Shown in pieces: positions 1-64,000 of a stretch of DNA of 64,000 nucleotides (positions are counted from its first letter, which is position 1; each line of letters begins with the position of its first letter). The stretch comes from Siphonodentalium dalli (lineage: Eukaryota > Mollusca > Scaphopoda > Gadilida > Siphonodentaliidae), in assembly GCA_032622095.1 (NCBI GenBank), contig CP136066.1, positions 167,286,664 to 167,350,663 of the forward strand. Direction: 5' to 3'. The position numbers and the translations under genes are program-made. The notes under the pieces were generated by a model. The model saw only the letters and a list, made by a program, of their open reading frames with translations. It was not told where the DNA came from and ran no database searches.

Positions 1-1519
1 TATAATTTACACCATCCTAGTGCTTCGTTGTTGATTATTTTGTTTTTAACTTGATAATAAATTATCCACATTCTATAAATGTCTCCAAATTACTCTATTT
101 TTGTCCTACGAATGACGAATTCCCGCCCTGGCTTGGCAATTTAGGGCCATACCATAGATATTATTACATTTACCGGTATACCAGGTAGATTTACTAGTGG
201 GTTGCTAATTATTTTTAATGGCAGTTGATGGTATCATATTTAAAGCTGAAATATCAAAAGCCTAGCCATACAGTTTGCTTAAATCCAGTCAGGACATTTT
301 CACCTCAGCAGAGAGCATCAAGCAATAATAAAATAACAACATTCTATAAATGTCTCCAAATTACTCTCATAAATGTTGCCCTATACGAATGACGAATTCC
401 CGACTTGACAATACTATCGATAGCATTACATTTATCGGTATATCAAAAATTGTGTTGGTAGATTTACCAGTGAGTCCCCCCTGTTGTTAGTCTCCCAAAC
501 AACACTAGCTTCGGTCAAATCTAACTCAGTGCTAATTATGTTGTTGGCAGTTGATGGTATCATATTTAAAGCTCAAATATCAAATATGTTGGATCCAAAA
601 ACATCTCTTAAAGATGCATAATCCGAATTGAGGCTCCAAAATAACTATTTCTTTGGCGTCGGGGGTAAATTTTTGAAGTTTGTTATTTGTCGAGATGCTC
701 AATTATTTGTGGCCCAGAAAAAAATCGTCAAACCGCATGTCTCGGAAAAAATTGCTGGCGAAGATGGATAACTCTAAAATCAATTGGTAATACGGACAAA
801 TTTCGTGATACTCAACTGATAATACGGTCATATTTCGTGGACTAAAATGTTGATGAGTAAGACGTTTTGTGAAATTTGATAACATAGTAGACAGTGGTTA
901 GCATTATTTTATTGCATTTATTCGATTCTGATAACTAAAGCATATTTTGAAGAAATGTTGTTGTATATTGAGGATATGGGGATCATCTGATTGGATTGAG
1001 TACATTTAAAGCCAATCCATACAGTTTGCTTAAAGGGGGACTCTAACCCTAAATCCGGCCATTTATGGGACCATTTCGTGTTATACTCAACAGAATATAT
1101 GCAATGAATGAATTTGAGCCATGTATGAGTGCAAAATACACTCATGTGTATTTATAGGGGGACTCTAACAAACAATATGGTAATTATAATGAAAATGAAT
1201 TTATGACTGCAGTCATTTACACATATTCATAATAATAACCATATTGTTTGCACCGTTCATAGAGCACATGAGTATATTTTTGCACTAATTTATGGCTCAA
1301 ATTAATTCATTTGTTGCATATATTCTGTTAAGTATAAAAGGAGATGGTCCCATAAATGGCCGGATTTAGTGTACAGTCCAGTCAAGACATTTCACTTCCG
1401 CTGGGAGCATCAAGATAAAGAATTTTAACAAAGGACCAACCAATTGAATTTAATACATTTGTGAGGTAAATATATTTGTGATTCGTTAGTTACTAAGAAT
1501 TCAATTTACGTGGGGGAGT
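1..1519. repeat. Array spacer, long type (partial unit at window start)
   Basis: Position 1 matches the base 63 nt after the stop codon of complete copies, so this is the 3' flank of a homeobox gene lying just outside the window. Its poly(A) signal AATAAA is at 56-61. Two diverged direct repeats of about 270 bp follow, then the long-type segment (about 600-1000) and the foldback element. The spacer breaks off near 1519, where other units continue, and runs into a LINE fragment. No gene is seen. Confidence 0.85.
1032..1378. mobile_element. TTAA-flanked foldback element, full length
   Basis: Two arms of about 170 bp are inverted copies of each other around the perfect palindrome TGACTGCAGTCA at 1204-1215. 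The left end reads TTAAAGGGGGACT. The right arm ends in CAGTCC and has lost its outermost bases compared with other copies. The left arm carries a short internal duplication of the GGGGGACTCTAA end near 1155. Confidence 0.75.
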
Positions 1520-1565
1520 AAACTGTAAATCTGGACAGCTGCCAAAAATTCAGAACGCAACGGAC

Positions 1566-2281
1566 ATGCTACGTAAATGCTTCTTTGCAGGTTGTCGTTC
1601 TCACGTTACGTCTACGTTTTCCCCGTTAACCAATCTTATGATGTTTAAACACATAGTTATCCCAAGGCACTGTACGGATGCGAAACGTGGTGGGATCTTT
1701 CTAGCACTCAATATATATCTCTCGAAAGAGCCTGGTGCTACTCTTCCCCCCAGATCTTTTGACACATGGAGACAAACTCTTTCTGAAATAAAATTAACCG
1801 CTGATGATCTGCGAGAGGCCCTCAAATCGGTCAACCCGACGAAAGCTTCAGGGCCAGACCAAGTACATCCCAAAATATTAAAACAGTGTGCTGACTCATT
1901 ATGTTATCCCCTCACCAATATATTCAACCGCTATATCAACGAATCCTATTTCCCTCTAGAATGTTGTGCCAATTCATAAAAAAGAAGACAGGAGTAAAAT
2001 GTCTAACTATAGGCCTGTATCACTGCTCAGCTGTATATCAAAAGTGTTTGAGAAATGTATATATAAATTTTTTTGGACTTTTTGACTAGTATCAAATTTA
2101 CAGTCAGGATTTGTCCGTGGTGATTCCACTGTCTTTCAACTCACCGATATCTCAGATTACATTGCAGACTCATTGGACCAAGGTAAAGAAATAAGATCTG
2201 TCTTCTGTGACGTTAGCAAAGTGTTTGATAAAGTATGGCACACAGGTTTATTGTACAAACTTGAACGTATAATTCAACAGC
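1566..2281 (+). mobile_element. LINE reverse-transcriptase fragment, degenerate
   Basis: Translation gives the N-terminal part of a non-LTR reverse transcriptase: an ASGPDQVHPKIL segment near 1845-1880, then in other frames NYRPVSLLSCISKVFEKCIYK (about 2000-2065), SGFVRGDSTVFQLTD (about 2105-2150) and FCDVSKVFDKVWHTGLL (about 2200-2255). These match the same regions of the long LINE at 12111-15284, but with clear divergence, so this is an older relative in the Jockey/CR1 group. The frame changes at least twice, one stop is inside, and the YADD/FADD catalytic segment is missing. It is a dead fragment, broken at both ends. Confidence 0.8.
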
Positions 2282-4299: not shown

Positions 4300-4462
4300 A
4301 ATTTATTCACCGAATAACTGTCACACACTTTAGGTCACAATATAGCTCTACAACTTAGCCGATAAATAATCAGTTATGGCACATAATTAGACATTTGTTT
4401 ACAAAAAACAGCAGAGAAAATTTTCCGCGCGTCCATTGTCTATCGTACACCGGATATGCAGT

Positions 4463-4854
4463 GTTATTGATGTTCCCATTTTCACCGTCGAATATCCTAT
4501 ATAATGTCCGTTTCGATATAAAAAAAAATTTAGAGTCTGCACATTTTTCAAATTCTTCTTGCCGACCGAGAACTGTTCTTAAGACAGTGATACTGCTAAA
4601 CGAAATGTAAGTTGTTATCATAAGACTATTGGACACAATCGCGCATGTTTTATGAGACATTTCAAAACAAACACATAAAAACTGCTCACTTCTCGAGAGC
4701 GCAGCTCACGGAGCCCGATGTTTATTTAGCACAAAGTTTTCCACACTCACGCCGTGAGTAAAATCCGTGCGTCCTGATTGGATGAACATCATTATAAAAA
4801 AGGTCAGGACAACGAGAATGAAATCATACACAATCGACTATCATAGATAATAAA
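4463..4854 (+). promoter_or_regulatory. Orphan homeobox-gene promoter (gene deleted)
   Basis: The sequence matches the promoter of the intact copies. It has the inverted repeat ACTCACGCCGTGAGT at 4745-4759, an ATTGG (reverse CCAAT) box about 4778, and TATAAAAA at 4793-4800. The 5' UTR starts normally but at about 4853 jumps to sequence that normally lies about 220 bp after the stop codon. The whole CDS, its 3' UTR and poly(A) signal are missing. The upstream flank also differs from other units: there is no endonuclease fragment, so this may show an older arrangement. Confidence 0.85.
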
Positions 4855-6131
4855 TTTAGGGCCATACCATAGATATTATTACATTTACCGGTATTCCAGG
4901 TAGATTTACTAGTGAGATGCTAATTATTTTTAATGGCAGTTGATGGTATCATATTTAAAGCTGAAATATCAAAAGCCTAGCCATACAGTTTTCTTAAATC
5001 CAGTCAGGACATTTTCACCCCAGCAGAGAGCATCAAGCAATAATAAAATAAAAAAATACTATAAATGTCTCCAAATTACTCTCTTAAATGTTGCCCTATA
5101 CGAATGACGAATTCCCGACTTGACAATACTATCGATAGCATTACATTTATCGGTATATCAAAAATTGTGTTGGTAGATTTACCAGTGAGTCCCTCCTGTT
5201 GTTAGTCTCCCAAACAACACTAGCTTCGGTCAAATCTAACTCAGTGCTAATTGTGTTGTTGGCAGTTGATGGTATCATATTTAAAGCTCAAATATCAAAT
5301 ATGTTGGATCCAAAAATATCTACACGCATGTGCTCTATGAATGATGCAAACAATATGGTAATTATAATGAAAATGAATTTATGACTGCAGTCATTTACAC
5401 ATATTCATAATAATAACCATGTTTTTTTGCATCGTTCATAGAGCACATGAGTATATTTTTGCACTAATTTATGGCTCAAATTAAATCATTTGTTGCATAT
5501 TTTCTGTTGAGTATAAAAGGAGATGGTCCCATAATTGGCCGGATTTAGTGTACAGTCCCCTTTAAATCCAGTCAAGACATTTCACTTCCGCTGGGAGCAT
5601 CAAGATAAAGAATTTTATCAGAGGACCAACCAATTGAATTTAATACATTTGTGAGGTAAAAATATTTGTGATTCGTTAGCTACTAAGAATTCCATTTAAG
5701 TGGGGGAGTAATATGTTGGACGATATGCCCAAGTGTGAGCGCTTTTTTGTCAGAATAAGTAATCTGGGATTTGTTCTGGAAAAATAACTCAAATATGGCA
5801 TACAACACTGTGCATGTCAAGTCGTACATACAACTTGACATGAAAGTTCTCAATAACAGCAAATCTGCATGACAGATTTTACAATTTCCATCCATGTACC
5901 GGCCACCGCATTGGCAGCCATCTTGGGGTTAATATGTCACGTAGTAACCACCGACGGCATGAAATTATCGTACATACAAATTATATCCACCACGCTACAT
6001 TATTGTCTTTATGCATTTCGAGAAGACGACAAAAATAGGTTTTCGATTAGTTTTGGACAAAACTAATTAAATATTTAATACAAAATTGGGGCCAGGAGGT
6101 GCGAACATCTCTTCTCAAAAGGTGTGAATAT
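4855..6131. repeat. Array spacer, short type
   Basis: The spacer starts in the first 270-bp module (the part after the poly(A) signal), continues through the second, then a foldback element with truncated left arm. At 5875-6090 it carries the AT-rich module containing GGCCACCGCATTGGCAGCC, which ends in GGGGCCAGGAGGTGC. Small ORFs here recur only because the DNA recurs; no gene is seen. Confidence 0.85.
5313..5563. mobile_element. TTAA foldback element, left arm truncated
   Basis: The palindromic centre TGACTGCAGTCA is at 5382-5393. The right arm is complete to CAGTCCCCTTTAA, but the left arm begins only near the CATGTGCTCTATGAATG segment. The outer ~100 bp of the left arm, together with the long-type segment, is absent. 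This deletion defines the short spacer type. Confidence 0.75.
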
Positions 6132-6567: not shown

Positions 6568-7254
6568 CTATCCTAGTCTGCATGTTTTACGTTTGAGGTG
6601 AATTAAATCTAATGTTTCCCTTGATACCCTCCAAGTGTTTTGCTTAATTCTCTTTTTTGGACATGCTATGTCAATGGCATCCCTAACAATATCAGATATT
6701 GCTATGGCTGCAATCTCAATATCATTTGGAGATTTAATTTCAGTCTTGTCGATGTTTGCGTTGATTAATTCCCTAAATTTGTCCCAATTTGCATTTCTGA
6801 GGTTTCTTTTGAGAATAACTTTATTGTGTTGTGGTTTAGCATTTGTTATATAGAGTTCGACTGGGTAGTGGTCACTCCCTACATCAAATCCTATTTTGCA
6901 TTTATGTATAGATTTTGCAATTGATGGCGTGGCAAGAGCATAATCTAATATATCCCATGATCTGGTCGCTATGTGGTAGTGCGTTGCGATGCCCTTGTTA
7001 TTGAGTAACACTAGTTCTCGATCTTCGATTATGTCGAAAAGTGCGTCCCCGTAGGGATTAGTTTTGCAGCATTTGTAAACAATGTGTTTTGCGTTAAGGT
7101 CTCCCAAAAAGATGCAGTTTTTGAATTTATTGGTAAAAAATTTGAATGTTGAGAGTTGAGGGGGGGGGGGTTTACAAGGGGGTACGTATAGTGAAACTAT
7201 AGCCGTTTTCCTATTACTGACAGAAGTAAACGATCGCATAATTATGTTATACAT
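6568..7254 (-). mobile_element. LINE endonuclease fragment (EEP fold), 228-aa ORF
   Basis: The reverse-strand ORF matches the C-terminal two thirds of a LINE apurinic-like endonuclease: SLYVPP near the start, GDLNAKH (about residues 50-56), and SDHYPVEL (about 126-133). The N-terminal catalytic part (Asn and Glu motifs) is missing and the downstream reverse transcriptase is absent, so it cannot be an active endonuclease. A run of 11 G (coding strand: Pro codons) lies near its start. The ORF is intact in this unit because run length and a one-base change compensate. Confidence 0.8.
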
Positions 7255-7265
7255 GCAGTTGTAGT

Positions 7266-7351
7266 GTTATTGATGTTCCCATTTTCACCGTCGAATATCC
7301 TATATAATGTCTGTTTCGATATAAAAAAGTTTAGAGTCTGCACATTTTTCA
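7266..7351 (+). promoter_or_regulatory. Promoter 5' stub, gene and core promoter deleted
   Basis: Only the first ~85 bp of the promoter module are kept (to TCTGCACATTTTTCAAA). The sequence then jumps to the second 270-bp spacer module at TAAAATGTCTCC. TATA box, 5' UTR, CDS and 3' UTR are missing. This is the second gene-less unit. Confidence 0.8.
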
Positions 7352-8424
7352 AATAAAATGTCTCCAAATTACTCTCTTAAATGTTGCCCTATACGAATGA
7401 CGAATTCCCGACTTGACAATACTATCGATAGCATTACATTTATCGGTATATCAAAAATTGTGTTGGTAGATTTACCAGTGAGTCCCTCCTGTTGTTAGTC
7501 TCCCAATCAACACTAGCTTCGGTCAAATCTAACTCAGTGCTAATTGTGTTGTTGGCAGTTGATGGTATCATATTTAAAGCTCAAATATCAAATATGTTGG
7601 ATCCAAAAATATCTACACGCATGTGCTCTATGAATGATGCAAACAATATGGTAATTATAATGAAAATGAATTTATGACTGCAGTCATTTACACATATTCA
7701 TAATAATAACCATGTTTTTTTGCATCGTTCATAGAGCACATGAGTATATTTTTGCACTAATTTATGGCTCAAATTAAATCATTTGTTGCATATTTTCTGT
7801 TGAGTATAAAAGGAGATGGTCCCATAATTTGCCGCATTTAGTGTACAGTCCCCTTTAAATCCAGTCAAGACATTTCACTTCCGCTGGGAGCATCAAGATA
7901 AAGAATTTTATCAGAGGACCAACCAATTGAATTTAATACATTTGTGAGGTAAAAATATTTGTGATTCGTTAGCTACTAAGAATTCCATTTAAGTGGGGGA
8001 GTAATATGTTGGACGATATGCCCAAGTGTGAGCGCTTTTTTGTCAGAATAAGTAATCTGGGATTTGTTCTGGAAAAATAACTCAAATATGCCATACAACA
8101 CTGTGCATGTCAAGTCGTACATACAACTTGACATGAAAGTTCTCAATAACAGCAAATCTGCATGACAGATTTTACAATTTCCATCCATGTACCGGCCACC
8201 GCATTGGCAGCCATCTTGGGGTTAATATGTCACGTAGTAACCGCCGACGGCATGAAATTATCGTACATACAAATTATATCCACCACGCTACATTATTGTC
8301 TTTATGCTTTTCGAGAAGACGACAACAATAGGTTTTCGATTAGTTTTGGACAAAACTAATTAAATATTTAATACAAAATTGGGGCCAGGAGGTGCGAACA
8401 TCTCTTCTCAAAAGGTGTGAATAT
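7352..8424. repeat. Array spacer, short type, starting at module 2
   Basis: The spacer begins inside the second 270-bp module, with a foldback element and the AT-rich GGCAGCC module (about 8160-8390). It is otherwise close to 5080-6131, which it probably duplicates. No gene is seen. Confidence 0.85.
7606..7856. mobile_element. TTAA foldback element, left arm truncated
   Basis: The centre TGACTGCAGTCA is at 7675-7686. The right arm is complete and the left arm short, as in the previous unit. Confidence 0.75.
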
Positions 8425-8530: not shown

Positions 8531-9340
8531 ATGGCTGCTACGTGCTTTGGCTCCTTGATCGACGCCCTGACAGACGAAACTCTCCGAGATCTCAGTCAAG
8601 CTACATGTAGTAGTTCTGATAGGTTATCTTCTCTTGAGTCATCTCCAGTTAACACATGTGACCTCGAGCCGATGTCAGACAGCCGACTGAACGACTCTCT
8701 ATCAGCAGTGTTTGGTGCGTTTGAACCAGTCAGCTCTTCCGACTATATTGGTGATCTTAAAGATATTCTCGTTCAAGAGTGCAAAGGTGCCACCTTCACA
8801 TGAAGTCTTCTGCAAACAATATCCGACACGGTCGACATCTACAGCCGAGAAAAGGAACTGTTCGTCATATTCAGCCAGCTCGAGTCAGTGGCTCCAACAG
8901 AAATCAGAGACCTGCGCAGTTTCTACCGCTATCAGACAGCCATCGTTGACGCAGAACGACACGACGCCATTGTGAATCCATGTTACTCCAAGCACTACAT
9001 CGACTGCCTCAATCGACACTCCGACAACCAGATCCACTGCATCATGTCCAGAGTTGAACGCAGCCTACAACCACTTCTCGTCAAGACCAGAGAGCCACGT
9101 CGAGTTCTCAAGGTGCGCCCCGTTCTATCCAGATCAGCCGTCCGACTCATGCAGAATTGGTACGACAGCAACCTCCATCATCCATACCCAACGACTGATG
9201 TCATCGAGTCCCTAGCAACGACAACAGGTGTTTCTGTTGAACAGGTCAAGAAGTGGTTCGCCAATAAGAGAAACCGAGCAGGCAACACCCGTACCCTTTC
9301 AGAGATTGCCAACAGAAAGAGAACAGCCAGTATGCGATGA
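8531..9340 (+). pseudogene. SPILE-like TALE homeobox gene, broken copy
   Basis: All 810 nt align without gaps to the intact copies. Codon 91 (Gly, GGA) is TGA at 8801-8803, which would end the product before the helical domain and homeodomain. Other differences are F164S and A232T in conserved parts. The promoter is deleted: only about 70 bp of 5' UTR remain, joined to the GGACC stub, and no TATA box lies at -100. The homeobox region (about 9104-9292) still encodes HPYP and WFANKRNR. The poly(A) signal is at 9458-9463. Damage in both promoter and coding sequence marks it as dead. An ATG-initiated ORF restarting at 8888 could encode the C-terminal 150 aa, but nothing suggests it is expressed. 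Confidence 0.9.
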
Positions 9341-15265: not shown

Positions 15266-15284
15266 AATTTCGACATGGCTGCAA
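12111..15284 (-). CDS. LINE ORF2: endonuclease and reverse transcriptase
   Basis: The intact 1057-aa frame shows, in order: an EEP-type endonuclease (LNTQSIRNK near 18-26, TESWLDHS near 45-52, GGDFNEN at about 151-157, then a YHCPV end segment), and a reverse transcriptase with SGPDGISPRVLK, NYRPISLLSC, GVPQGSILGPLLFLIYI and the catalytic FADD at 674-677. A C-terminal Cys/His segment (CLCGE, then HYLFEC) follows. This order fits Jockey/CR1-type ORF2 proteins, which nick the target and prime reverse transcription there. The first six codons, including the ATG, lie in array sequence antisense to the homeobox gene start, so the true N-terminus is probably lost. No stop or frameshift is seen inside. 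Confidence 0.9.
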   Translation of the reverse strand: MQPCRNSTEQHNHSVLVLNTQSIRNKVDILAAETSSGEYDICLLTESWLDHSIPDSEIHLPGYHDPARKDRIDGRTGGGVCIYVRDTIPFKICDELDSDEVENIWIEVTINTKRCLVGCFYRPPNSPASLWTKINDNISLARDSDMDVIIGGDFNENYVRNGNGKINGICSERGLTQLVTDKTHFTENSSSILDLLMTSNPDLVDSPCVLGNIFDNTIRYHCPVVAQIKLLKNKSATTLNRRIWNYNLADFDTTNEDFLSWNYDDNIPFELSAHADNLTAKIQKVCSDNIPNKIVLIRKGSPQWLTCNVRKLMRQRNRLHKIAKRKNTPQTWANFRSKRNETTSAIRKSKRDYDTKNENTLNSPSHDQSSWWKTLQKIVFATSDRSIPPLNTNGDFLISPTEKANAFNSYFCKISSVDDIGKRLPVIEPDNSISTLSDIKITAPDIYKALKSLKISKSSGPDGISPRVLKSCASSLCEPLEFYFRTFTENNYYPHQWKRSHVTPIFKSGDPGLISNYRPISLLSCVSKVYEKCIYKYLWEFLDENKLLSFYQAGFMRNDSTVFQLTEIYDNICRSLDDGKEVRCIFCDISKAFDKVWHRGLLNKLTKIGIRGNLYNLMKSYLECRQQQVVIDGTRSELQDVTAGVPQGSILGPLLFLIYIDDITENIRCNIRLFADDTSLFLTIEDPTMAAKLINDDLETLMCWASEWLVKFNPLKTESLLISRKETPVYHPHLTMGTATIVEVDSHKHLGLTFDNMGSWGIHIRSMLDKAWSRVNLVRKHRYKLSRVTLEKIHYTFIRPILEYASPVWDNCPDYLSDDIEKVQYEMARIVTGATISTSNACLLSETGWELLSSRRRKHKLCQFFKMIRGTAPSILRNYVRPIQTNNSRYNLRFEHIRLPSNINYDYYMDSFLPSAITEWNKLSENTKSSSTIEDFKKELNSDNIRPPAYFYHSKCRKSHILHTRLRLNCSHLSGDLTDNHVKFSPFCLCGEFETTYHYLFECTFYQEPRRELYDSLPNVALSENTLMRGSRELSLRENKQIFNAVQTYIMRTKRFP

Positions 15285-16084
15285 CGTGCTTTGGCTCCTT
15301 GATCGACGCCCTGACAGACGAAACTCTCCGAGATCTCAGTCAAGCTACATGTAGTAGTTCTGATAGGTTATCTTCTCTTGAGTCATCTCCAGTTAACACA
15401 TGTGACCTCGAGCCGATGTCAGACAGCCGACTTAACGACTCTCTATCAGCAGTGTTTGGTGCGTTTGAACCAGTCAGCTCTTCCGACTATATTGGTGATC
15501 TTAAAGATATTCTCGTTCAAGAGTGCAAAGGTGCCACCTTCACAGGAAGTTTTCTGCAAACAATATCCGACACGGTCGACATCTACAGCCGAGAAAAGGA
15601 ACTGTTCGTCATATTCAGCCAGCTCGAGTCAGTGACTCCAACAGAAATCAGAGACCTGCGCAGTTTCTACCGCTATCAGACAGCCATCGTTGACGCAGAA
15701 CGACACGACGCCATTGTGAATCCATGTTACTCCAAGCACTACATCGACTGCCTCAATCGACACTTCGACAACCAGATCCACTGCATCATGTCCAGAGTTG
15801 AACGCAGCCTACAACCACTTCTCGTCAAGACCAGAGAGCCACGTCGAGTTCTCAAGGTGCGCCCCGTTCTATCCAGATCAGCCGTCCGACTCATGCAGAA
15901 TTGGTACGACAGCAACCTCCATCATCCATACCCAACGACTGATGTCATCGAGTCCCTAGCAACGACAGCAGGTGTTTCTGTTGAACAGGTCAAGAAGTGG
16001 TTCGCCAATAAGAGAAACCGAGCAGGCAACACCCGTACCCTTTCAGAGATTGCCAACAGAAAGAGAACAGCCAGTATGCGATGA
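15275..16084 (+). CDS. SPILE-like TALE homeodomain protein, promoter replaced
   Basis: The intact 269-aa ORF is identical to the 21629 copy except L93F. The homeodomain spans about residues 192-254, with HPYP at 217-220 and WFANKRNR at 242-249. Only 9 bp of the normal leader survive upstream; beyond that lies the antisense start of a LINE, so TATA box, CCAAT box and 5' UTR are gone. The frame stays open upstream to an ATG at 15224, adding 17 residues from LINE antisense sequence. I keep the ATG at 15275 because it matches all other copies and has G at -3 and +4. The 3' UTR and AATAAA (118 nt after the stop) are normal. Unless the LINE supplies an antisense promoter, this copy is probably silent despite its intact ORF. 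Confidence 0.9.
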   Translation: MAATCFGSLIDALTDETLRDLSQATCSSSDRLSSLESSPVNTCDLEPMSDSRLNDSLSAVFGAFEPVSSSDYIGDLKDILVQECKGATFTGSFLQTISDTVDIYSREKELFVIFSQLESVTPTEIRDLRSFYRYQTAIVDAERHDAIVNPCYSKHYIDCLNRHFDNQIHCIMSRVERSLQPLLVKTREPRRVLKVRPVLSRSAVRLMQNWYDSNLHHPYPTTDVIESLATTAGVSVEQVKKWFANKRNRAGNTRTLSEIANRKRTASMR

Positions 16085-18689: not shown

Positions 18690-19850
18690 TCTGACTCTGG
18701 CAGCAAGTGGAGCGAACAAGTCAAATTATATTTGGCTCCATTAGTTCCTTGTTGCCAGAGCGTCTACACGAGTGAGTTGTGCGGTCGCGACCTCGGTTGT
18801 AACTGCCCTCGTGGGGACGCCAGACTGAGATGGTTTTGGATTAGGCTCAGGACGGATTATGGAGCTAATCCCTGACGCCGCGTTGGCCGCTATACAGAAA
18901 AGCCGGTTAGTGGACGCCGTTAGTTGGTCTCTCCAAGCTAACAGGGGCTCTCTGGTTCTCTGTGTAGAATTCCGGACAGAAGAAGCTGGCATCCAGAAGT
19001 CTTCTGCCGAGAACAAGAACGCCAAGACCCGCTGTACCATGAAGAAGGGGCCTCCCAAGAGAAAGACACCCTCATAGAAAAGAAGGGACGCTGTCAGACG
19101 GGCTAAATGGAAGAAGCAGAATGGGGTGACTGTAGATCGGCCAGTCGCCCCTCCCCGTGTGGCTCAGCCGTCCAGAGTCATAGCCGGCAGGCCGGAGTTG
19201 TCTGAGAGACGCCCAGACGCCCCGACTTGCATGGAGACTGACGACATTGAACCAGCTAGCAGGGACTCCGTGGATCTGCCGGAGGTCCCTGCTGTCGTCG
19301 TCGAGGCTATCGGAGACAAGGACGTGGATACCACCCCAGATGTTCCTGCCGCCAGCTTCGACGTGGAACTGGATAGTTTTACACCCCAGACACCGGATTA
19401 CCAACACATCCCGGTGTCCCCCAGCTCCACCAGCACCAACAACAACACCAGCACAGCCACCACCCGTTCTGAGGAAGAGATTGCAGAGTTTATCGCTGAT
19501 ACACACAGATTTAGGGAAGAACAGAGATTACTAAGAAAACAAGACAAGGAAGAATTTCAGAAATATTTAGATCAGCGACAGACAGAACGGGAAGAAGAAC
19601 AGGCAGCTGTGATGCAACAAACTCAACAACAACTACAGCAAACAGAAACTCAACAACGGAAAAAAAAAGAAAGCCAAGAAAAAATAATAATAATATGTCT
19701 AGATCATTTTCACTTTTTCATGTTCCATAGTTATGTTTACATAACTCCATCATATCACCTCCAAGTGGGTTGTAGGAGAGGGGTTCCGCCCCTTTCAAAT
19801 CTTCCCTGGGCTTATTCCCAAAACCCCAAATAAACATCTTACTTCTGATT
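18690..19850 (+). repeat. Gln-rich repeat element, forward copy
   Basis: This is a copy of the element at 2676-3866 on the other strand. The leader starts near GGAGCGAACAAGTCA and the coding part begins MELIPDAALAAIQKS at 18859. One in-frame stop (19075-19077) follows the PKRKTPS segment, after which the frame runs on to the Gln-rich, Lys-rich end. The C-terminal coiled part (EEIAEFIADTHRFREEQ and on) differs from the reverse copy, so the two belong to different subfamilies. A putative poly(A) signal, AATAAA, is near 19829. Confidence 0.6.
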
Positions 19851-19914
19851 TCATAAGAAACGAAAGACAACGCTTTGCGTGAATCGTCATATTCCTCTCA
19901 CCCTAAACATTATT

Positions 19915-19932
19915 TGACGTCACATGACGTCA
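19915..19932. promoter_or_regulatory. Paired CRE-like palindromes
   Basis: Two perfect TGACGTCA sites (19915-19922 and 19925-19932) are separated by 2 bp. This is the consensus for CREB/ATF dimers. They lie between the Gln-rich element and the GGACC block and recur at 40923-40940. Function is inferred from the motif alone; the site is about 1.7 kb from the gene start. Confidence 0.4.
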
Positions 19933-20042
19933 TGACTGCAATTCCGATATTCAATGGTTACATGTTTTACCCTACTCTGGTTATCGCCCCACTCTCAGGT
20001 ATCAAAATTGGACGAACATCTCTTCTCAAAAGGTGTGAATAT

Positions 20043-20178
20043 TAGTGATGCGGACCGGACCGCTTTGGACCGGTCTGGTCCGCGGCCCAGGGGTGGACCG
20101 CGTCCGTCCGGACCGGGTGTCACTGGACCGGACCGGACCGCTTTTTGCCGCCGGTCCGGTACTCTCCGGTCCGGTCCA
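20043..20178 (+). mobile_element. GGACC-rich block, hAT-like terminus
   Basis: It has a TAGTGATGCGGACC start and full-length array of GGACCG/CGGTCC repeats, ending before the CACTATTTTACTTCAG unit sequence. 20179-20502 is the usual AT-rich segment with two GGCCGCC-type repeats. Confidence 0.45.
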
Positions 20179-20502
20179 CTATTTTACTTCAGTTATAATA
20201 AACTATCACGAATATTATTGCGTATTTGCCGTCATATCAATTAGCAACGATGTATTGACGCATTCAAGTGGTTAATATCTATTAAACGTTTGATGCCACG
20301 AAAACAATCTATATATGTAGTTTGTACATGTCACTTTCCTTATGAAAGTGCCAGTGTGGGCGGCCGCCTGCTTTGATGTCGCCGATTTCCGACCGCCTGC
20401 TTTGATGTCGCAAAATGATAAGCATTCTGAAAACATTTTCAAAATATAAAAATTGCTTGTTTCGTTCTAAATTGTTTTTAATAACTACTATCCTACACCT
20501 GA

Positions 20503-21186
20503 CTATCCTAGTCTGCATGTTTTACGTTTGAGGTGAATTAAATCTAATGTTTCCCTTGATACCCTCCAATTGTTTTGCTTAATTCTCTTTTTTTGACATG
20601 CTATGTCAATGGCATCCCTAACAATATCAGATATTGCTATGGCTGCAATCTCAATATCATTTGGAGATTTAATTTCAGTCTTGTCGATGTTTGCGTTGAT
20701 TAATTCCCTAAATTTGTCCCAATTTGCATTTCTGAGGTTTCTTTTGAGAATAACTTTATTGTGTTGTGGTTTAGCATTTGTTATATAGAGTTCGACTGGG
20801 TAGTGGTCACTCTCTACATCAAATCCTATTTTGCATTTATGTATAGATTTTGCAATTGATGGCATGGCAAGAGCATAATCTAATATATCCCATGATCTGG
20901 TCGCTATGTGGTAGTGCGTTGCGATGCCCTTGTTATTGAGTAACACTAGTTCTCGATCTTCGATTATGTCGAAAAGTGCGTCCCCGTAGGGATTAGTTTT
21001 GCTGCATTTGTAAACAATGTGTTTTGCGTTAAGGTCTCCCAAAAAGATGCAGTTTTTTAATTTATTGGTAAAAAATTTGAATGTTGAGAGTTGAGGGGGG
21101 GTTTTGCAAGGGGGTACGTATAGTGAAACTATAGCCGTTTTCCTATTACCGACAGAAGTAAACGATCGCATAATTATGTTATACAT
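20503..21186 (-). mobile_element. LINE endonuclease fragment, 227-aa ORF intact
   Basis: This is the reference copy with a 7-G run. Motifs are SLYVPP, GDLNAKH, DILDYALA and SDHYPVEL. It ends KRKTCRLG before any reverse transcriptase. It lies in reverse orientation directly upstream of the homeobox promoter. Confidence 0.8.
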
Positions 21187-21197
21187 GCAGTTGTAGT

Positions 21198-24386: not shown

Positions 24387-24521
24387 TAGTGATGCGGACC
24401 GGACCGCTTTGGACCGGTCTGGTCCGCGGTCCAGGTGTGGACCGCGTCCGACCGGACCGGGTGTCACTGGACCGGACCGGACCGCTTTTTGCCGCCGGTC
24501 CGGTACTCTCCGATCCGGTCC
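24387..24521 (+). mobile_element. GGACC-rich block, hAT-like terminus
   Basis: It starts TAGTGATGCGGACC. Compared with the copy at 20043, it has CCAGGTGTGG and CTCCGATCCGG variants that recur in all later long units. 24522-24846 is the AT-rich segment; its two GGCCGCCTGCTTTGATGTCGC repeats are at 24706-24726 and 24735-24755. Confidence 0.45.
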
Positions 24522-25530: not shown

Positions 25531-25541
25531 GCAGTTGTAGT

Positions 25542-34219: not shown

Positions 34220-34230
34220 GCAGTTGTAGT

Positions 34231-42636: not shown

Positions 42637-43446
42637 ATGGCTGCAACGTGCTTTGGCTCCTTGATCGACGCCCTGACAGACGAAACTCTCCGAGATCTCA
42701 GTCAAGCTACATGTAGTAGTTCTGATAGGTTATCTTCTCTTGAGTCATCTCCAGTTAACACATGTGACCTCGAGCCGATGTCAGACAGCCGACTTAACGA
42801 CTCTCTATCAGCAGTGTTTGGTGCGTTTGAACCAGTCAGCTCTTCCGACTATATTGGTGATCTTAAAGATATTCTCGTTCAAGAGTGCAAAGGTGCCACC
42901 TTCACAGGAAGTCTTCTGCAAACAATATCCGACACGGTCGACATCTACAGCCGAGAAAAGGAACTGTTCGTCATATTCAGCCAGCTCGAGTCAGTGACTC
43001 CAACAGAAATCAGAGACCTGCGCAGTTTCTACCGCTATCAGACAGCCATCGTTGACGCAGAACGACACGACGCCATTGTGAATCCATGTTACTCCAAGCA
43101 CTACATCGACTGCCTCAATCGACACTTCGACAACCAGATCCACTGCATCATGTCCAGAGTTGAACGCAGCCTACAACCACTTCTCGTCAAGACCAGAGAG
43201 CCACGTCGAGTTCTCAAGGTGCGCCCCGTTCTATCCAGATCAGCCGTCCGACTCATGCAGAATTGGTACGACAGCAACCTCCATCATCCATACCCAACGA
43301 CTGATGTCATCGAGTCCCTAGCAACGACAGCAGGTGTTTCTGTTGAACAGGTCAAGAAGTGGTTCGCCAATAAGAGAAACCGAGCAGGCAACACCCGTAC
43401 CCTTTCAGAGATTGCCAACAGAAAGAGAACAGCCAGTATGCGATGA
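42637..43446 (+). CDS. SPILE-like TALE homeodomain protein
   Basis: The 269-aa product is identical to the 21629 copy (T121). Both units also share the Gln-rich element, paired CRE sites and endonuclease variants upstream, and lie 21,008 bp apart, so they descend from one duplicated block. Promoter, homeodomain and poly(A) signal are complete. The 3' flank (TTTACACCATCC) already matches the group of later units rather than the 21629 group, so an exchange point may lie near the gene's 3' end. Confidence 0.92.
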   Translation: MAATCFGSLIDALTDETLRDLSQATCSSSDRLSSLESSPVNTCDLEPMSDSRLNDSLSAVFGAFEPVSSSDYIGDLKDILVQECKGATFTGSLLQTISDTVDIYSREKELFVIFSQLESVTPTEIRDLRSFYRYQTAIVDAERHDAIVNPCYSKHYIDCLNRHFDNQIHCIMSRVERSLQPLLVKTREPRRVLKVRPVLSRSAVRLMQNWYDSNLHHPYPTTDVIESLATTAGVSVEQVKKWFANKRNRAGNTRTLSEIANRKRTASMR

Positions 43447-46983: not shown

Positions 46984-47793
46984 ATGGCTGCAACGTGCTT
47001 TGGCTCCTTGATCGACGCCCTGACAGACGAAACTCTCCGAGATCTCAGTCAAGCTACATGTAGTAGTTCTGATAGGTTATCTTCTCTTGAGTCATCTCCA
47101 GTTAACACATGTGACCTCGAGCCGATGTCAGACAGCCGACTGAACGACTCTCTATCAGCAGTGTTTGGTGCGTTTGAACCAATCAGCTCTTCCGACTATA
47201 TTGGTGATCTTAAAGATATTTTCGTTCAAGAGTGCAAAGGTGCCACCTTCACAGGAAGTCTTCTGCAAACAATATCCGACACGGTCGACATCTACAGCCG
47301 AGAAAAGGAACTGTTCGTCATATTCAGCCAGCTCGAGTCAGTGGCTCCAACAGAAATCAGAGACCTGCGCAGTTTCTACCGCTATCAGACAGCCATCGTT
47401 GACGCAGAACGACACGACGCCATTGTGAATCCATGTTACTCCAAGCACTACATCGACTGCCTCAATCGACACTTCGACAACCAGATCCACTGCATCATGT
47501 CCAGAGTTGAACGCAGCCTACAACCACTTCTCGTCAAGACCAGAGAGCCACGTCGAGTTCTCAAGGTGCGCCCCGTTCTATCCAGATCAGCCGTCCGACT
47601 CATGCAGAATTGGTACGACAGCAACCTCCATCATCCATACCCAACGACTGATGTCATCGAGTCCCTAGCAACGACAGCAGGTGTTTCTGTTGAACAGGTC
47701 AAGAAGTGGTTCGCCAATAAGAGAAACCGAGCAGGCAACACCCGTACCCTTTCAGAGATTGCCAACAGAAAGAGAACAGCCAGTATGCGATGA
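46984..47793 (+). CDS. SPILE-like TALE homeodomain protein, variant copy
   Basis: Intact 269 aa with three differences from the reference: V67I, L80F and T121A. All lie outside the homeodomain, which is unchanged (HPYP, WFANKRNR, Ala at position 50). V67I is shared only with the 51327 copy, and L80F is private. It lies 4347 bp after the previous ATG. Promoter and AATAAA are intact. Confidence 0.92.
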   Translation: MAATCFGSLIDALTDETLRDLSQATCSSSDRLSSLESSPVNTCDLEPMSDSRLNDSLSAVFGAFEPISSSDYIGDLKDIFVQECKGATFTGSLLQTISDTVDIYSREKELFVIFSQLESVAPTEIRDLRSFYRYQTAIVDAERHDAIVNPCYSKHYIDCLNRHFDNQIHCIMSRVERSLQPLLVKTREPRRVLKVRPVLSRSAVRLMQNWYDSNLHHPYPTTDVIESLATTAGVSVEQVKKWFANKRNRAGNTRTLSEIANRKRTASMR

Positions 47794-51326: not shown

Positions 51327-52136
51327 ATGGCTGCAACGTGCTTTGGCTCCTTGATCGACGCCCTGACAGACGAAACTCTCCGAGATCTCAGTCAAGCTAC
51401 ATGTAGTAGTTCTGATAGGTTATCTTCTCTTGAGTCATCTCCAGTTAACACATGTGACCTCGAGCCGATGTCAGACAGCCGACTGAACGACTCTCTATCA
51501 GCAGTGTTTGGTGCGTTTGAACCAATCAGCTCTTCCGACTATATTGGTGATCTTAAAGATATTCTCGTTCAAGAGTGCAAAGGTGCCACCTTCACAGGAA
51601 GTCTTCTGCAAACAATATCCGACACGGTCGACATCTACAGCCGAGAAAAGGAACTGTTCGTCATATTCAGCCAGCTCGAGTCAGTGGCTCCAACAGAAAT
51701 CAGAGACCTGCGCAGTTTCTACCGCTATCAGACAGCCATCGTTGACGCAGAACGACACGACGCCATTGTGAATCCATGTTACTCCAAGCACTACATCGAC
51801 TGCCTCAATCGACACTTCGACAACCAGATCCACTGCATCATGTCCAGAGTTGAACGCAGCCTACAACCACTTCTCGTCAAGACCAGAGAGCCACGTCGAG
51901 TTCTCAAGGTGCGCCCCGTTCTATCCAGATCAGCCGTCCGACTCATGCAGAATTGGTACGACAGCAACCTCCATCATCCATACCCAACGACTGATGTCAT
52001 CGAGTCCCTAGCAACGACAGCAGGTGTTTCTGTTGAACAGGTCAAGAAGTGGTTCGCCAATAAGAGAAACCGAGCAGGCAACACCCGTACCCTTTCAGAG
52101 ATTGCCAACAGAAAGAGAACAGCCAGTATGCGATGA
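51327..52136 (+). CDS. SPILE-like TALE homeodomain protein, variant copy
   Basis: Intact 269 aa, with V67I and T121A relative to the reference; the homeodomain is unchanged. It lies 4343 bp after the previous copy, with which it shares V67I. Promoter and poly(A) signal are intact, so it should be expressible. Confidence 0.92.
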   Translation: MAATCFGSLIDALTDETLRDLSQATCSSSDRLSSLESSPVNTCDLEPMSDSRLNDSLSAVFGAFEPISSSDYIGDLKDILVQECKGATFTGSLLQTISDTVDIYSREKELFVIFSQLESVAPTEIRDLRSFYRYQTAIVDAERHDAIVNPCYSKHYIDCLNRHFDNQIHCIMSRVERSLQPLLVKTREPRRVLKVRPVLSRSAVRLMQNWYDSNLHHPYPTTDVIESLATTAGVSVEQVKKWFANKRNRAGNTRTLSEIANRKRTASMR

Positions 52137-55668: not shown

Positions 55669-57468
55669 ATGGCTGCAACGTGCTTTGGCTCCTTGATCGA
55701 CGCCCTGACAGACGAAACTCTCCGAGATCTCAGTCAAGCTACATGTAGTAGTTCTGATTACGGGGAACTTGTAGCAAAAACATATTGAAATATATACCTT
55801 ATATACTACCACAGGGGGAGTCACTAATTCGGTACGGAATAGCGCCGAACGACGTCAACGTTGATTTTCTGACACACTGCACCGATTTTGGTCGGATAAA
55901 CGGTATTGTCGCGTATATTGCTATTTCCAAAAGTGATATAAATCCTCCTTACCATGTAATGTGCTGTAGAATGCCGATATAAACCTGTTTTGTACTTTCA
56001 AGTGGAAGAAATCTTTCTAATCGAACCATAAACATGGCCTGATTCGCCATTAATCATGGCAAAATATGCCCTCTTTCTGATTGGTCGATATTCACGTGGC
56101 TTTGTTTACGAAACAACGGTCAGAAAAAAAACATTATGTATATTAAATATCGACCAATGAGAAAGAGTCACATTTGCTAATACGATATGGGAACACCGTG
56201 TGCGTAACGTAACTATCACAAGTATAACGTACTCTGATAACAACTTATCACCAATTTCATGCTTAAGACATTTTAAACATATCATCTTCGGCTTGTTTTA
56301 TTTTATTTTTATGAAAAGGAATAACAAATGGGGTAATAAATATATATAACGACAAATAGAATCAAATTGGTCATTTTCTTGGTACAGACAAGCAAGGTAC
56401 GAAAATTGGTGAAATCTGAGTACGAACGTGGGAGTGTTCCCCTATCGTATTCCGTTAACCACCAACCGTGGAGTGCATGTTCACGGTCTGGTTTGAAGCA
56501 ATTTTCTCACTTCAAAGTATACAAAAGTTGTTGTTAGACATTCCACTGCTATTGACAGTGTAAGGAGGTTTTTATTCACTTTTGAAAGAAGAAAAACAAG
56601 CGACAATGCCGTTTACGCGGCCATAATCGGTTCGGTGAGTCAGAAATGCAACAAATTTCGGGAATGGGAAACCGAACATTGTCTGACCTTGTCATATATA
56701 TATATATTATGTAAACACTGTTTTCTACAAAGTGCCTGTGGTTCTGATAGGTTATCTTCTCTTGAGTCATCTCCAGTTAACACATGTGACCTCGAGCCGA
56801 TGTCAGACAGCCGACTGAACGACTCTCTATCAGCAGTGTTTGGTGCGTTTGAACCAGTCAGCTCTTCCGACTATATTGGTGATCTTAAAGATATTCTCGT
56901 TCAAGAGTGCAAAGGTGCCACCTTCACAGGAAGTCTTCTGCAAACAATATCCGACACGGTCGACATCTACAGCCGAGAAAAGGAACTGTTCGTCATATTC
57001 AGCCAGCTCGAGTCAGTGGCTCCAACAGAAATCAGAGACCTGCGCAGTTTCTACCGATATCAGACAGCCATCGTTGACGCAGAACGACACGACGCCATTG
57101 TGAATCCATGTTACTCCAAGCACTACATCGACTGCCTCAATCGACACTTCGACAACCAGATCCACTGCATCATGTCCAGAGTTGAACGCAGCCTACAACC
57201 ACTTCTCGTCAAGACCAGAGAGCCACGTCGAGTTCTCAAGGTGCGCCCCGTTCTATCCAGATCAGCCGTCCGACTCATGCAGAATTGGTACGACAGCAAC
57301 CTCCATCATCCATACCCAACGACTGATGTCATCGAGTCCCTAGCAACGACAGCAGGTGTTTCTGTTGAACAGGTCAAGAAGTGGTTCGCCAATAAGAGAA
57401 ACCGAGCAGGCAACACCCGTACCCTTTCAGAGATTGCCAACAGAAAGAGAACAGCCAGTATGCGATGA
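55669..57468 (+). pseudogene. SPILE-like TALE homeobox gene, split by a DNA transposon
   Basis: The CDS lies in two parts, 55669-55758 (codons 1-30) and 56749-57468 (codons 31-269), together exactly 810 nt. GTTCTGAT is duplicated at the junctions (55751-55758 and 56741-56748). Residue 121 is Ala. The downstream part is open from an ATG inside the transposon at 56635, so a 277-aa chimeric ORF exists in which about 38 transposon-derived residues replace the first 30 native ones, with helical domain and homeodomain intact. Whether anything transcribes it is unknown. The poly(A) region is normal. Confidence 0.92.
55759..56740. mobile_element. 982-bp non-autonomous DNA transposon, hAT-type
   Basis: The insertion has an 8-bp target duplication (GTTCTGAT). 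Its ends are imperfect inverted repeats: TACGGGGAACTTGTAGCAAAA on the left against CACAGGCACTTTGTAGAAAA read inward from the right, sharing TTGTAG. The 8-bp duplication and short inverted ends fit the hAT superfamily. No transposase ORF is present. An internal hairpin has 22-bp arms at 56071-56092 and 56146-56167 with one mismatch. Confidence 0.8.
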
Positions 57469-61335: not shown

Positions 61336-61763
61336 GTTATTGATGTTCCCATTTTCACCGTCGAATATCCTATATAATGTCTGTTTCGATATAAAAACGT
61401 TTAGAGTCTGCACATTTTTCAAACTCTTCTTGCCGACCGAGAACTGTTCATAATACAGTAATACTGCTAAACGAAATGTGAATTGTTATCATAAGACTAT
61501 TGGACGCGATCTCGCATGTTTTATGAGACATTTCAAAACACACACATAAAAACTGCTCACTTCTCGAGAGCGCAGCTCACGGAGCCCGATGTTTATTTAG
61601 CACAAAGTTTTCCACACTCACGCCGTGAGTAAAATCCGTGCGTCCTGATTGGATGAACATCATTATAAAAAGGTCAGGACAACGAGAATGAAATTATACA
61701 CAATCGACTATCCTAGATAATAAATTCTCACAGTTAATCGTCTAAAACTCTTTTAATTTCGAC
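61336..61763 (+). promoter_or_regulatory. Homeobox gene promoter and 5' UTR
   Basis: TATAAAAA is at 61664-61671 and ACTCACGCCGTGAGT at 61616-61630. GCGATCTCGC replaces the GCGATCGCGC palindrome seen in other copies, so that site is probably not essential. Confidence 0.75.
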
Positions 61764-62573
61764 ATGGCTGCAACGTGCTTTGGCTCCTTGATCGACGCCC
61801 TGACAGACGAAACTCTCCGAGATCTCAGTCAAGCTACATGTAGTAGTTCTGATAGGTTATCTTCTCTTGAGTCATCTCCAGTTAACACATGTGACCTCGA
61901 GCCGATGTCAGACAGCCGACTGAACGACTCTCTATCAGCAGTGTTTGGTGCGTTTGAACCAGTCAGCTCTTCCGACTATATTGGTGATCTTAAAGATATT
62001 CTCGTTCAAGAGTGCAAAGGTGCCACCTTCACAGGAAGTCTTCTGCAAACAATATCCGACACGGTCGACATCTACAGCCGAGAAAAGGAACTGTTCGTCA
62101 TATTCAGCCAGCTCGAGTCAGTGGCTCCAACAGAAATCAGAGACCTGCGCAGTTTCTACCGATATCAGACAGCCATCGTTGACGCAGAACGACACGACGC
62201 CATTGTGAATCCATGTTACTCCAAGCACTACATCGACTGCCTCAATCGACACTTCGACAACCAGATCCACTGCATCATGTCCAGAGTTGAACGCAGCCTA
62301 CAACCACTTCTCGTCAAGACCAGAGAGCCACGTCGAGTTCTCAAGGTGCGCCCCGTTCTATCCAGATCAGCCGTCCGACTCATGCAGAATTGGTACGACA
62401 GCAACCTCCATCATCCATACCCAACGACTGATGTCATCGAGTCCCTAGCAACGACAGCAGGTGTTTCTGTTGAACAGGTCAAGAAGTGGTTCGCCAATAA
62501 GAGAAACCGAGCAGGCAACACCCGTACCCTTTCAGAGATTGCCAACAGAAAGAGAACAGCCAGTATGCGATGA
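61764..62573 (+). CDS. SPILE-like TALE homeodomain protein
   Basis: Intact 269 aa with T121A as the only difference from the reference. Codon 133 is CGA as in the 55669 copy, where other copies have CGC, linking these two neighbours. Homeodomain, HPYP and WFANKRNR are intact. Promoter and AATAAA 118 nt after the stop are present. This is the last complete copy in the window. Confidence 0.92.
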   Translation: MAATCFGSLIDALTDETLRDLSQATCSSSDRLSSLESSPVNTCDLEPMSDSRLNDSLSAVFGAFEPVSSSDYIGDLKDILVQECKGATFTGSLLQTISDTVDIYSREKELFVIFSQLESVAPTEIRDLRSFYRYQTAIVDAERHDAIVNPCYSKHYIDCLNRHFDNQIHCIMSRVERSLQPLLVKTREPRRVLKVRPVLSRSAVRLMQNWYDSNLHHPYPTTDVIESLATTAGVSVEQVKKWFANKRNRAGNTRTLSEIANRKRTASMR

Positions 62574-64000
62574 CCTCTCGCCATTATTACTGCCATGTAA
62601 CATTGTTGTTTTAGTGCTGATGTCATACACATGTATATAATTTACACCATCCTAGTGCTTCGTTGTTGATTATTTTGTTTTTAACTTGATAATAAATTAT
62701 CCACATTCTATAAATGTCTCCAAATTACTCTATTTTTGTCCTACGAATGACGAATTCCCGCCCTGGCTTGACAATTTAGGGCCATACCATAGATATTATT
62801 ACATTTACCGGTATACCAGGTAGATTTACTAGTGGGTTGCTAATTATTTTTAATGGCAGTTGATGGTATCATATTTAAAGCTGAAATATCAAAAGCCTGG
62901 CCATACAGTTTGCTTAAATCCAGTCAGGACATTATCACCTCAGCAGAGAGCATCAAGCAATAATAAAATAACAAAATTCGATAAATGTCTCCAAATTACT
63001 CTCTTAAATGTTGCCCTATACGAATGACGAATTCCCGACTTGACAATACTATCGATGGCATTACATTTATCGGTATATCAAAAATTGTGTCGGTAGATTT
63101 ACCAGTGAGTCCCTCCTGTTGTTAGTCTCCCAAACAACACTAGCTTCGGTCAAATCTAACTCGGCGCTAATTATGTTGTTGGCAGTTGATGGTATCATAT
63201 TTAAAGCTCAAATATCAAATATGTTGGATCCAAAAATATCTACACGCATGTGCTCTATGAATGATGCAAACAATATGGTAATTATAATGAAAATGAATTT
63301 ATGACTGCAGTCATTTACACATATTCATAATAATAACCATGTTTTTTTGCATCGTTCATAGAGCACATGAGTATATTTTTGCACTAATTTATGGCTCAAA
63401 TTAAATCATTTGTTGCATATTTTCTGTTGAGTATAAAAGGAGATAGTCACATAATTGGCCGGATTTAGTGTACAGTCCCCTTTAAATCCAGTCAAGACAT
63501 TTCACTTCCGCTGGGAGCATCAAGATAAAGAAGTTTAACAGAGGACCAACCAATTGAATTTAATACATTTGTGAGGTAAAAATATTTGTGATTCGTTAGC
63601 TACTAAGAATTCCATTTAAGTGGGGGGGGGTAATATGTTGGACGATATGCCCAAGTGTGAGCGCTTTTTTGTCAGAATAAGTAATCTGGGATTTGTTCTG
63701 GAAAAATAACTCATGAATCTTATCCCAATGTCATGATCAACTTGACATGAAAGTTCTCAATAACAGCAAATCTGCATGACAGATTTTACAATTTCCATCC
63801 ATGTACCGGCCACCGCATTGGCAGCCATCTTGGGGTTAATATGTCACGTAGTAACCGCCGACGGCATGAAATTATCGTACATACAAATTATATCCACCAC
63901 GCTACATTATGCATTTCGAGAAAACGACAAAAATAGGTTTTCGATTAGGTTTGGACAAAACTAATTAAATATTTAATACAAAATTGGGGCCAGGAGGTGC
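62574..64000. repeat. Array spacer, short type (window ends inside)
   Basis: Same arrangement as 57469-58932, with a 9-G run at about 63622-63630. The window ends at GGGGCCAGGAGGTGC, just before the expected GGACC block, so the array goes on. No gene is seen. Confidence 0.85.
63233..63483. mobile_element. TTAA foldback element, left arm truncated
   Basis: The centre is at 63302-63313; the right end CAGTCCCCTTTAAATCCAGTC is complete. Confidence 0.75.

Follow-up and report, generated by a model that had tools for sequence, protein, structure and literature searches.

A 22-copy tandem array of single-exon TALE homeobox genes, probably of SPILE A/C type, in the scaphopod Siphonodentalium dalli

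Near-identical SPILE A/C homeobox genes in tandem are reported from two molluscs, with eight in the limpet Lottia gigantea and seven in the chiton Acanthopleura granulata (PMC8524836). The molluscan SPILE A/C genes show a characteristic organization, namely a single TALE homeodomain with a QVKK motif and a conserved region upstream of it at the PADRE position, and their tandem sets comprise near-identical copies sharing a scaffold or chromosome, described as products of lineage-specific duplication; in mussel and limpet their zygotic expression is given as beginning at the 4-16-cell stages (PMC8524836). By clade names, SPILE A/C corresponds to TALE clades VI, XV and XVII (PMC6118893), and QVKK is the motif published for TALE clade VI (PMC5322547). 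Since the limpet and chiton sets are already published, the kind of array described below is a known one, to which the S. dalli locus adds its size, its single-exon unit and its per-copy promoters. Outside the molluscs, human DUX4/D4Z4 and mouse Dux likewise combine arrayed copies of an intronless homeobox gene with a relative elsewhere that has introns. The D4Z4 unit of 3.3 kb is present in 11-150 copies in unaffected people, and the 4.9-kb mouse Dux unit in more than 28 (PMC8877164, PMC2737622). The mammalian ETCHbox genes (e.g. 27 copies of rabbit LEUTX and 66 mouse Obox loci) are comparable to the present locus as tandem, fast-evolving homeobox genes with pseudogenes among them, the embryonic expression reported being that of the mammals (PMC8208926).

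The window, i.e. the entire 64,000-nucleotide stretch of S. dalli DNA analysed here, contains 11 copies of an 810-nt TALE homeobox CDS, arranged head-to-tail as the original prediction had it, and all on the + strand. The array was also said to run off both ends of the window: it does continue past both, yet it is bounded, and with both ends found it comprises 22 copies in one orientation over 142.7 kb (C6:167,237,683-167,380,407), as against the eight and seven of limpet and chiton. Over their aligned parts the window copies share 99.1-100% identity with the one at 15275, and, as this identity extends over hundreds of bases, their likeness lies far past chance. The claim of 11 coding sequences holds for their presence and for the integrity of eight, which are intact 269-aa ORFs: copies 10 (15275..16084), 11 (21629..22438), 12 (25973..26782), 13 (30317..31126), 15 (42637..43446), 16 (46984..47793), 17 (51327..52136) and 19 (61764..62573), all on the + strand like the remaining three. 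Copy 9 (8531..9340) has a nonsense codon at position 91, and two copies are split by insertions. Copy 14 is divided into a 5' part with codons 1-192 (34659..35236) and a 3' part (38593..38829) by a 3,356-bp insert (35237-38592), which has a reverse-transcriptase ORF inside and a 5-bp host repeat, while in copy 18 a 979-bp insert (55759-56737) with an imperfect 11-bp host repeat separates 55669..55758 from 56738..57468. Array-wide, 18 of the 22 copies have an intact ORF, 17 copies are complete and four are broken; in the PRD-class ETCHbox arrays, by contrast, pseudogenes are reported to make up 45% of rabbit LEUTX and 79% of Peromyscus TPRX2 (PMC8208926). When the genome was searched in six frames and each of the 74 initial candidates was scored, one decayed copy was recovered outside the array, on C4, the remaining matches being more distant paralogues. 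This decayed copy includes upstream sequence from about -325, which rules it out as a retrocopy of the message alone.

The homeodomain (about 22202-22390 in copy 11) matches the Pfam Homeobox_KN model (PF05920) with an E-value of 2.8e-12 and 46.7 bits (cut-off 24), possesses the PYP loop, i.e. the three-residue loop extension, and aligns without gaps with PBX1/EXD, all of which bears out the predicted TALE class. There is one such domain per array protein, in contrast to the double homeodomain of the DUX family, to which DUX4 belongs and with which the array gene is not homologous. Its identity is 39% to EXD, 35% to PBX1, 33% to PKNOX1, 32% to MEIS2, 24% to TGIF1 and 27% to an IRX-like gene of the same genome (the IRX and MKX labels on this genome's own genes being ones we presume), and 65-68% to the genome's own C2 genes and mostly 51-65%, in some cases lower, to molluscan A/C-type relatives. 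The original prediction had proposed placing the homeodomain by phylogeny among canonical and molluscan SPILE sequences. In a tree of this domain the array gene groups with molluscan-specific TALEs, apart from the PBX/EXD, MEIS/PKNOX, TGIF and IRX-like rows (93/90, on a short alignment of 63 columns with a bootstrap that had not settled), and is joined to the chromosome-2 paralogues (96/86); of 104 rows, 28 that were unnamed relatives of one own gene had first been dropped. In a core tree of 36 hand-chosen rows, with relatives from mussel, scallop, clam and abalone, the array, C2 and C7 genes form one lineage-specific clade (100/99) beside the bivalve relatives. The program flagged long branches meeting in both trees, and both were built with molluscan TALE relatives of which none is a published SPILE sequence, such that the proposed separation from PBC, MEIS, TGIF and IRX was obtained, with the SPILE side of the comparison represented indirectly. 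No PBC domain was listed at E 1 in any of 38 members, and NCBIfam gave nothing above a cut-off. A canonical TALE identity (PBC, MEIS/PKNOX, TGIF or IRX) was thus rejected on the identities, the separation in the tree and the absent PBC domain. Among the best 7,998 candidates by shared words in a profile search, with two named relatives falling outside these, no relative with a species name exceeds 46% identity.

The homeodomain further contains the QVKK motif (VEQVKKWFANKRNR), and directly upstream of it we found a conserved block, common to the bivalve and abalone relatives, at the position of PADRE (a region some 87-90 residues long that precedes the homeodomain), the likeness being one of position rather than to the published PADRE alignment. 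With the homeodomain removed, this block detects within the same genome a two-homeodomain gene on C9 (E 2.6e-7) and a gene at C2:122 Mb (E 2.9e-12), the best E-value in 16 shuffled controls being 0.0037. The tree, the QVKK motif and the block at the PADRE position together support the array gene being of SPILE A/C type (TALE clade VI). The SPILE resemblance noted earlier is accordingly upheld in these three respects, and as to membership proper it is indirect.

Nine of the 11 window copies have TATAAA at -100 together with ATTGG at -116, and copies 9 and 10 lack both. Upstream homology reaches only to -73 in copy 9, and in copy 10 the unit homology stops at about -12, with a retroelement on the - strand upstream (RT ORF at 12111-14849). 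AATAAA lies at the expected place in nine copies (in copy 11, 120 nt beyond the start of the stop codon), the exceptions being the two split ones. A TATA box, a full ORF and a poly(A) signal are thus combined in seven of the 11 (copies 11-13, 15-17 and 19), and the notion that every copy comes with a TATA promoter and a poly(A) signal does not hold for four, two being without a TATA box and two having the signal severed by an insert. Array-wide, TATA and the ATTGG box are retained in 20 of 22 copies. The unit upstream region (-480 to -1; 21149..21628, + strand, in copy 11) has a CpG observed/expected ratio of 1.53 in copy 12, compared with 0.93 for the array, whose flanks have 0.91 and 0.89, with no special CpG depletion seen. 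In a comparison of copies 12 and 21, 91.5% identity was measured for the proximal promoter (-120 to -1), which is no better conserved than other non-coding parts.

The start-to-start spacing of the copies ranges from 3,591 to 14,113 bp, with dense transposons between them, and is regular only in three runs, comprising copies 2-6 (3,591/3,595 bp), 11-14 (4,342-4,344 bp) and 15-18 (4,342-4,347 bp). One full repeat unit of 4,344 bp spans 21629..25972 (+), and the 3.6-4.3 kb of the regular parts compares with 3.3 kb in D4Z4 and 4.9 kb in mouse. A 15.6-kb block (19154..34748, +) recurs at 40162-55758 with 99.45% identity, whereby copies 11-13 and the start of 14 correspond to copies 15-17 and the start of 18; in a tree of the copies, neighbours cluster together. 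Five unit remnants devoid of the CDS are interspersed in the whole array, two of them in the window, both on the + strand: an upstream-region fragment only (4457..4856) and a distal upstream fragment fused to downstream unit sequence (7219..7353). Searches of the window with Rfam at gathering scores and with a tRNA scan returned no match. A homogeneous macrosatellite was rejected on the irregular spacing; given spacing of 3.6-14.1 kb and the interspersed transposons, the term applies only in part, i.e. to a head-to-tail array of one gene with three regular runs.

Each regular unit also includes an Exo_endo_phos_2 endonuclease fragment of a non-LTR retroelement (20503..21186, - strand; the same ORF recurs at 24847-25530, 29191-29874 and 41511-42194). 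Together with the decayed C4 copy and its upstream sequence, this might point to a mobile element that captured a homeobox gene, the copies being its insertions. However, all copies but one lie at one locus in one orientation, and copies 21 and 22, whose homology to the rest is confined to -477 to +1032 plus 118 bp at 1372-1485, are without the endonuclease fragment in a colinear comparison. A captured transposon is disfavoured by this distribution and structure, and we consider it highly improbable.

Between the subfamilies of copies, 18 of 36 changes are synonymous, against 28% expected (p 0.008; pN/pS 0.31), which indicates constraint. Among the 18 young uninterrupted copies, synonymous changes number five of 24, compared with 6.8 expected (p 0.50; pN/pS 0.91, with low power), and change at this level looks neutral, as would be expected if the copies are individually redundant. 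The neutral expectation gives transitions a weight of 2 and each transversion 0.5. The sums omit the split copies, which differ from the consensus at no position in the 5' part and two in the 3' part of copy 14, and at one in the 3' part of copy 18; as the alignment of copy 5 stops at 804, its three apparent changes at 805-807 were removed, leaving 24 of 27. Promoter and poly(A) signals of each copy, the single exon, the transposons and the neutral drift are measured for this array and are not known to be described for limpet or chiton, the main text of PMC8524836 being without the word 'intron'.

The neutral pattern of the young copies would also fit a mostly neutral expansion, in which the work is done by a single copy or a handful of them, or by the further A/C-type genes present elsewhere in the same genome (C2, C7), and the rest result from unequal crossing-over with no dose effect. 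The four broken copies, the five remnants and the dense transposons are consistent with this, but 18 of 22 copies are still intact, 20 retain TATA and the ATTGG box, and the subfamilies are under constraint; a further point, the upstream bin at -240 to -181 in which copies 12 and 21 are identical at 60/60 positions, counts weakly, as the other upstream bins are 86-95% identical. While possible, such an expansion is in our view doubtful. We rather favor, as the probable reading, a young, locally amplified SPILE A/C-type array that is kept for a needed protein and gives a high-dose burst in early cleavage. In this reading the ancestral unit combined a TATA promoter, one coding exon and a poly(A) signal of its own. 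The array has grown by local and block duplication, and transposon insertions have broken some copies. The need for its protein might be what maintains the array, with each single copy dispensable and with unequal crossing-over and conversion keeping good copies common. Jointly, the copies are predicted, by analogy, to yield a fast, high-dose pulse of one transcription factor, the early-cleavage timing being taken from the stage at which the limpet and mussel SPILE A/C genes are on. Deployment outside cleavage, e.g. in gonad or late larva, has a parallel in the oyster orphans TALE5 and TALE6, which peak late, but the other 12 novel oyster TALEs are placed in egg-to-blastula stages (PMC5322547) and in mussel the A/C genes are expressed in embryos of 4-16 cells, rendering it quite unlikely. 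The suggested mode of SPILE turnover, with copies drifting and the whole array constrained, may partly explain the hard-to-resolve SPILE orthology across mollusc classes.

The likeness to D4Z4/DUX4 drawn in the original prediction holds for the anatomy, in the single exon, the TATA box of most copies, the head-to-tail order and the intron-bearing paralogue, and is weak at the level of a macrosatellite, given the irregular spacing and the many transposons. D4Z4 is also very GC-rich, at 39% GC for the array. The comparison is one of DNA anatomy. A D4Z4-like device that evolved independently in a spiralian, with the copies producing a joint short cleavage pulse, otherwise repeat-silenced, and array length setting the dose, is by this analogy conceivable, though we think it rather unlikely. 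Expression of the copies would mean that intronless tandem arrays had arisen in two animal lineages from early-embryo homeobox genes unrelated to each other, and it would become testable whether the array form is selected (for dose, the speed of a short intronless gene in fast cleavage, or repeat silencing).

The intronless nature of the gene, as predicted, is confirmed by the single-exon ORFs of the 18 intact copies and by the absence of the 305-nt intron found at codon 111 of the nearest intact paralogue, on C2. The start codon is supported by FGSLIDALTDETLRD near the array start, which matches FAALIDALAEETLRE near the ATG of this paralogue. We also considered whether the array gene began as a retrocopy; the C7 paralogues, placed by the core tree outside the grouping of array and C2 genes (95/78), are likewise without an intron at the codon-111 site, and hence the intron may equally have been gained in C2 or lost in the array. 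One of the C7 paralogues has a splice-acceptor-like site further upstream.

The window corresponds to C6:167,286,664-167,350,663. Matching the predicted CDS to it and to 156 kb of adjoining sequence recovered the 11 head-to-tail copies described in the original prediction, all on the + strand by CDS comparison. The claim that the array runs off both window ends also holds: 8 more copies lie left of it and 3 right of it, in the same orientation, giving 22 copies over a span of 142.7 kb. The whole genome (2.23 Gb in 9 contigs) was searched in six frames, which, with all 74 first-look candidates scored, returned these 22 copies, one decayed copy on contig C4 (85% over residues 100-269), four genes on C7 at 51-52%, four tandem genes on C2 at 63-65% in their second exon, and a set of weaker TALEs. 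The C7 genes form two A/C-type pairs in opposed orientation (C7:31.23-31.24 and 31.67-31.68 Mb; loci L037-L039 and L041), about 440 kb apart and with broken homeodomain fragments inside the pairs. The C2 paralogues (C2:76.11-76.14 Mb; L031-L034 and L046) have split coding sequences, and two of the four carry PYL instead of PYP in the TALE loop.

The assignment to the TALE class was confirmed by Pfam matches to Homeobox_KN and Homeodomain, and the solved structures nearest by sequence are PBX1 and extradenticle (about 35 bits). A protein search recovered 13 relatives at E <= 0.01: the top match, at 43%, is an uncharacterised protein of Mytilus trossulus, and one comes from abalone. A profile search recovered at least 40 relatives at E 1e-5 among the 7,998 candidates with the most shared words, those bearing a species name within this scored set being bivalves only. 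In a homeodomain phylogeny of the kind proposed with the original prediction (63 columns, drawn from rows other than published SPILE sequences, with a long-branch warning and an unsettled bootstrap), canonical and molluscan TALEs separate with 93/90 support, and the array groups with the C2 genes and the C4 copy at 96/86. A tree of the longer core, also with a long-branch warning, unites the array, C2 and C7 genes in a single clade at 100/99, a lineage-specific expansion. The array homeodomain contains the QVKK motif published for TALE clade VI, and a conserved region lies upstream of it at the place reported for PADRE (PMC5322547). Two further TALE genes of the genome still match this upstream block once the homeodomain is removed (E 2.6e-7 and 2.9e-12, against a best E of 0.0037 among 16 shuffles). 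On these sequence features we file the array gene as SPILE A/C-type, with published SPILE sequences lying outside the alignment. A separate TALE cluster at C9:143.49-143.51 Mb (L005-L008 and L026) is SPILE-B-like: most of its genes have two homeodomains, a published SPILE-B feature (PMC8524836), and some copies are nearly identical.

Near-identical tandem SPILE A/C genes have been reported in Lottia gigantea (8) and, on one scaffold, in the chiton Acanthopleura granulata (7) (PMC8524836); the present array, with 22 copies, is larger than either. Within the accessible portions of the open-access literature, which leave subscription journals mostly outside, no spiralian homeobox macrosatellite or bigger TALE array was found. 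Given these precedents, the array belongs to an already known kind, of which it is a larger example described in more structural detail. Big tandem homeobox arrays are otherwise reported from mammals, e.g. D4Z4/DUX4 and mouse Dux (PMC8877164, PMC2737622), rabbit LEUTX (27) and mouse Obox (66) (PMC8208926). The parallel with the DUX arrays is anatomical, and expression data could turn it into something more. It extends to an intronless array gene with an intron-bearing relative, as reported for the mammalian case (PMC8877164). One C2 paralogue is predicted to comprise two exons separated by a 305-nt intron (gtatgt...ttttcag) at codon 111, with sequence matching the N-terminus of the array protein soon after its ATG, and the remaining three C2 copies likewise align in two pieces. 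The array gene runs uninterrupted across this site in the 20 uninterrupted copies. The codon-111 intron is absent from the C7 genes as well, so a retro-origin of the array gene does not follow from its presence in C2.

Intact ORFs are found in 18 of the 22 copies (8 of 11 in the window), encoding 269 aa (267 aa for copies 21 and 22). Premature stops interrupt copy 5 at codon 124 and copy 9 at codon 91, and copies 14 and 18 are each split by an insert. The prediction that every copy in the window carries a TATA promoter and a poly(A) signal is too broad: each of the two features is present in 9 of the 11 copies there, and in 20 of the 22 overall. TATAAA at -100 and ATTGG at -116 (-98 and -114 in copies 21 and 22) are missing from copies 9 and 10, where upstream homology stops at -73 and about -12, respectively. 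AATAAA lies 120-124 nt beyond the start of the stop codon except in the split copies 14 and 18, where the inserts cut it off. TATA, full ORF and poly(A) signal occur together in 17 of 22 copies (7 of 11 in the window), and five CDS-less remnants of the unit were also found. Two reverse-transcriptase ORFs, one of 912 aa upstream of the TATA-less copy at 15275 (window 12111-14849, - strand) and one of 1,019 aa within copy 14 (35530-38589, - strand), are open over a long length, suggesting recent insertion.

In regular runs the unit measures 3,591 or about 4,344 bp; other spacing reaches 14.1 kb, and a 15.6-kb block is present twice at 99.45% identity. When the 20 uninterrupted copies are placed in a tree together with the C4 copy, neighbours cluster (3, 4 and 6; 7 and 8; 16 and 17; 10-13 with 15), several forks staying open, and the outer branch is that of copies 21 and 22. 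These two share with copy 12 only the stretch from -477 to +1032 and 118 bp further down, and hence the ancestral core was probably a 1.5-kb gene, to which the spacer, including a non-LTR endonuclease fragment, would have been added later. Copy 21 is identical to copy 12 at 95.3% in the CDS, 92.0% in the 3' part, 93.7% from -477 to -121 and 91.5% from -120 to -1. At the right end and flank of the array (L020 to L022) the same ORFs repeat at distances of about 11.5 and 10 kb, starting between copies 21 and 22 and continuing past the last CDS copy; the tandem duplication thus seems to extend beyond the genes. An ORF between array copies (L017:883-1875) matches Phage_integrase, a tyrosine recombinase family (E 1.1e-7). 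Three related ORFs with a Gln-rich end (window 2833-3708, - strand; 19231-19833 and 40239-40817, + strand) are perhaps retroelement parts; Pfam gave nothing over cut-off for the two that were scanned. The spacer of the 4,344-bp units holds a 351-bp self-complementary stretch (window 23532-23882 and equivalents), which matches its reverse complement at 81%.

Among the 18 uninterrupted young copies, pN/pS is 0.91, and the 24 point changes (5 synonymous, 17 missense, 2 nonsense) lie close to the neutral expectation of 6.8, 16.4 and 0.8 (p 0.50 for synonymous). Of the 36 changes separating copy 21 from the young-group majority sequence, 18 are synonymous, above expectation (p 0.008), with pN/pS 0.31. 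The two ratios are measured; as to their cause, the simplest reading would be that the copies are individually redundant and are drifting, and that lineages with defects do not take over the array.

In mussel and limpet, SPILE A/C genes are reported to be expressed at the 4-16-cell stages, and SPILE genes are said to act in quartet fate in the limpet (PMC8524836); 12 of 14 novel oyster TALEs are egg-to-blastula genes (PMC5322547). A gene this short, intronless and TATA-driven would, in many copies, be well suited to rapid cleavage cycles. CpG o/e is 0.93 in the array and 0.91 and 0.89 in the flanks, giving no sign of a special array history, and the upstream region is CpG-rich (1.53, measured in copy 12).
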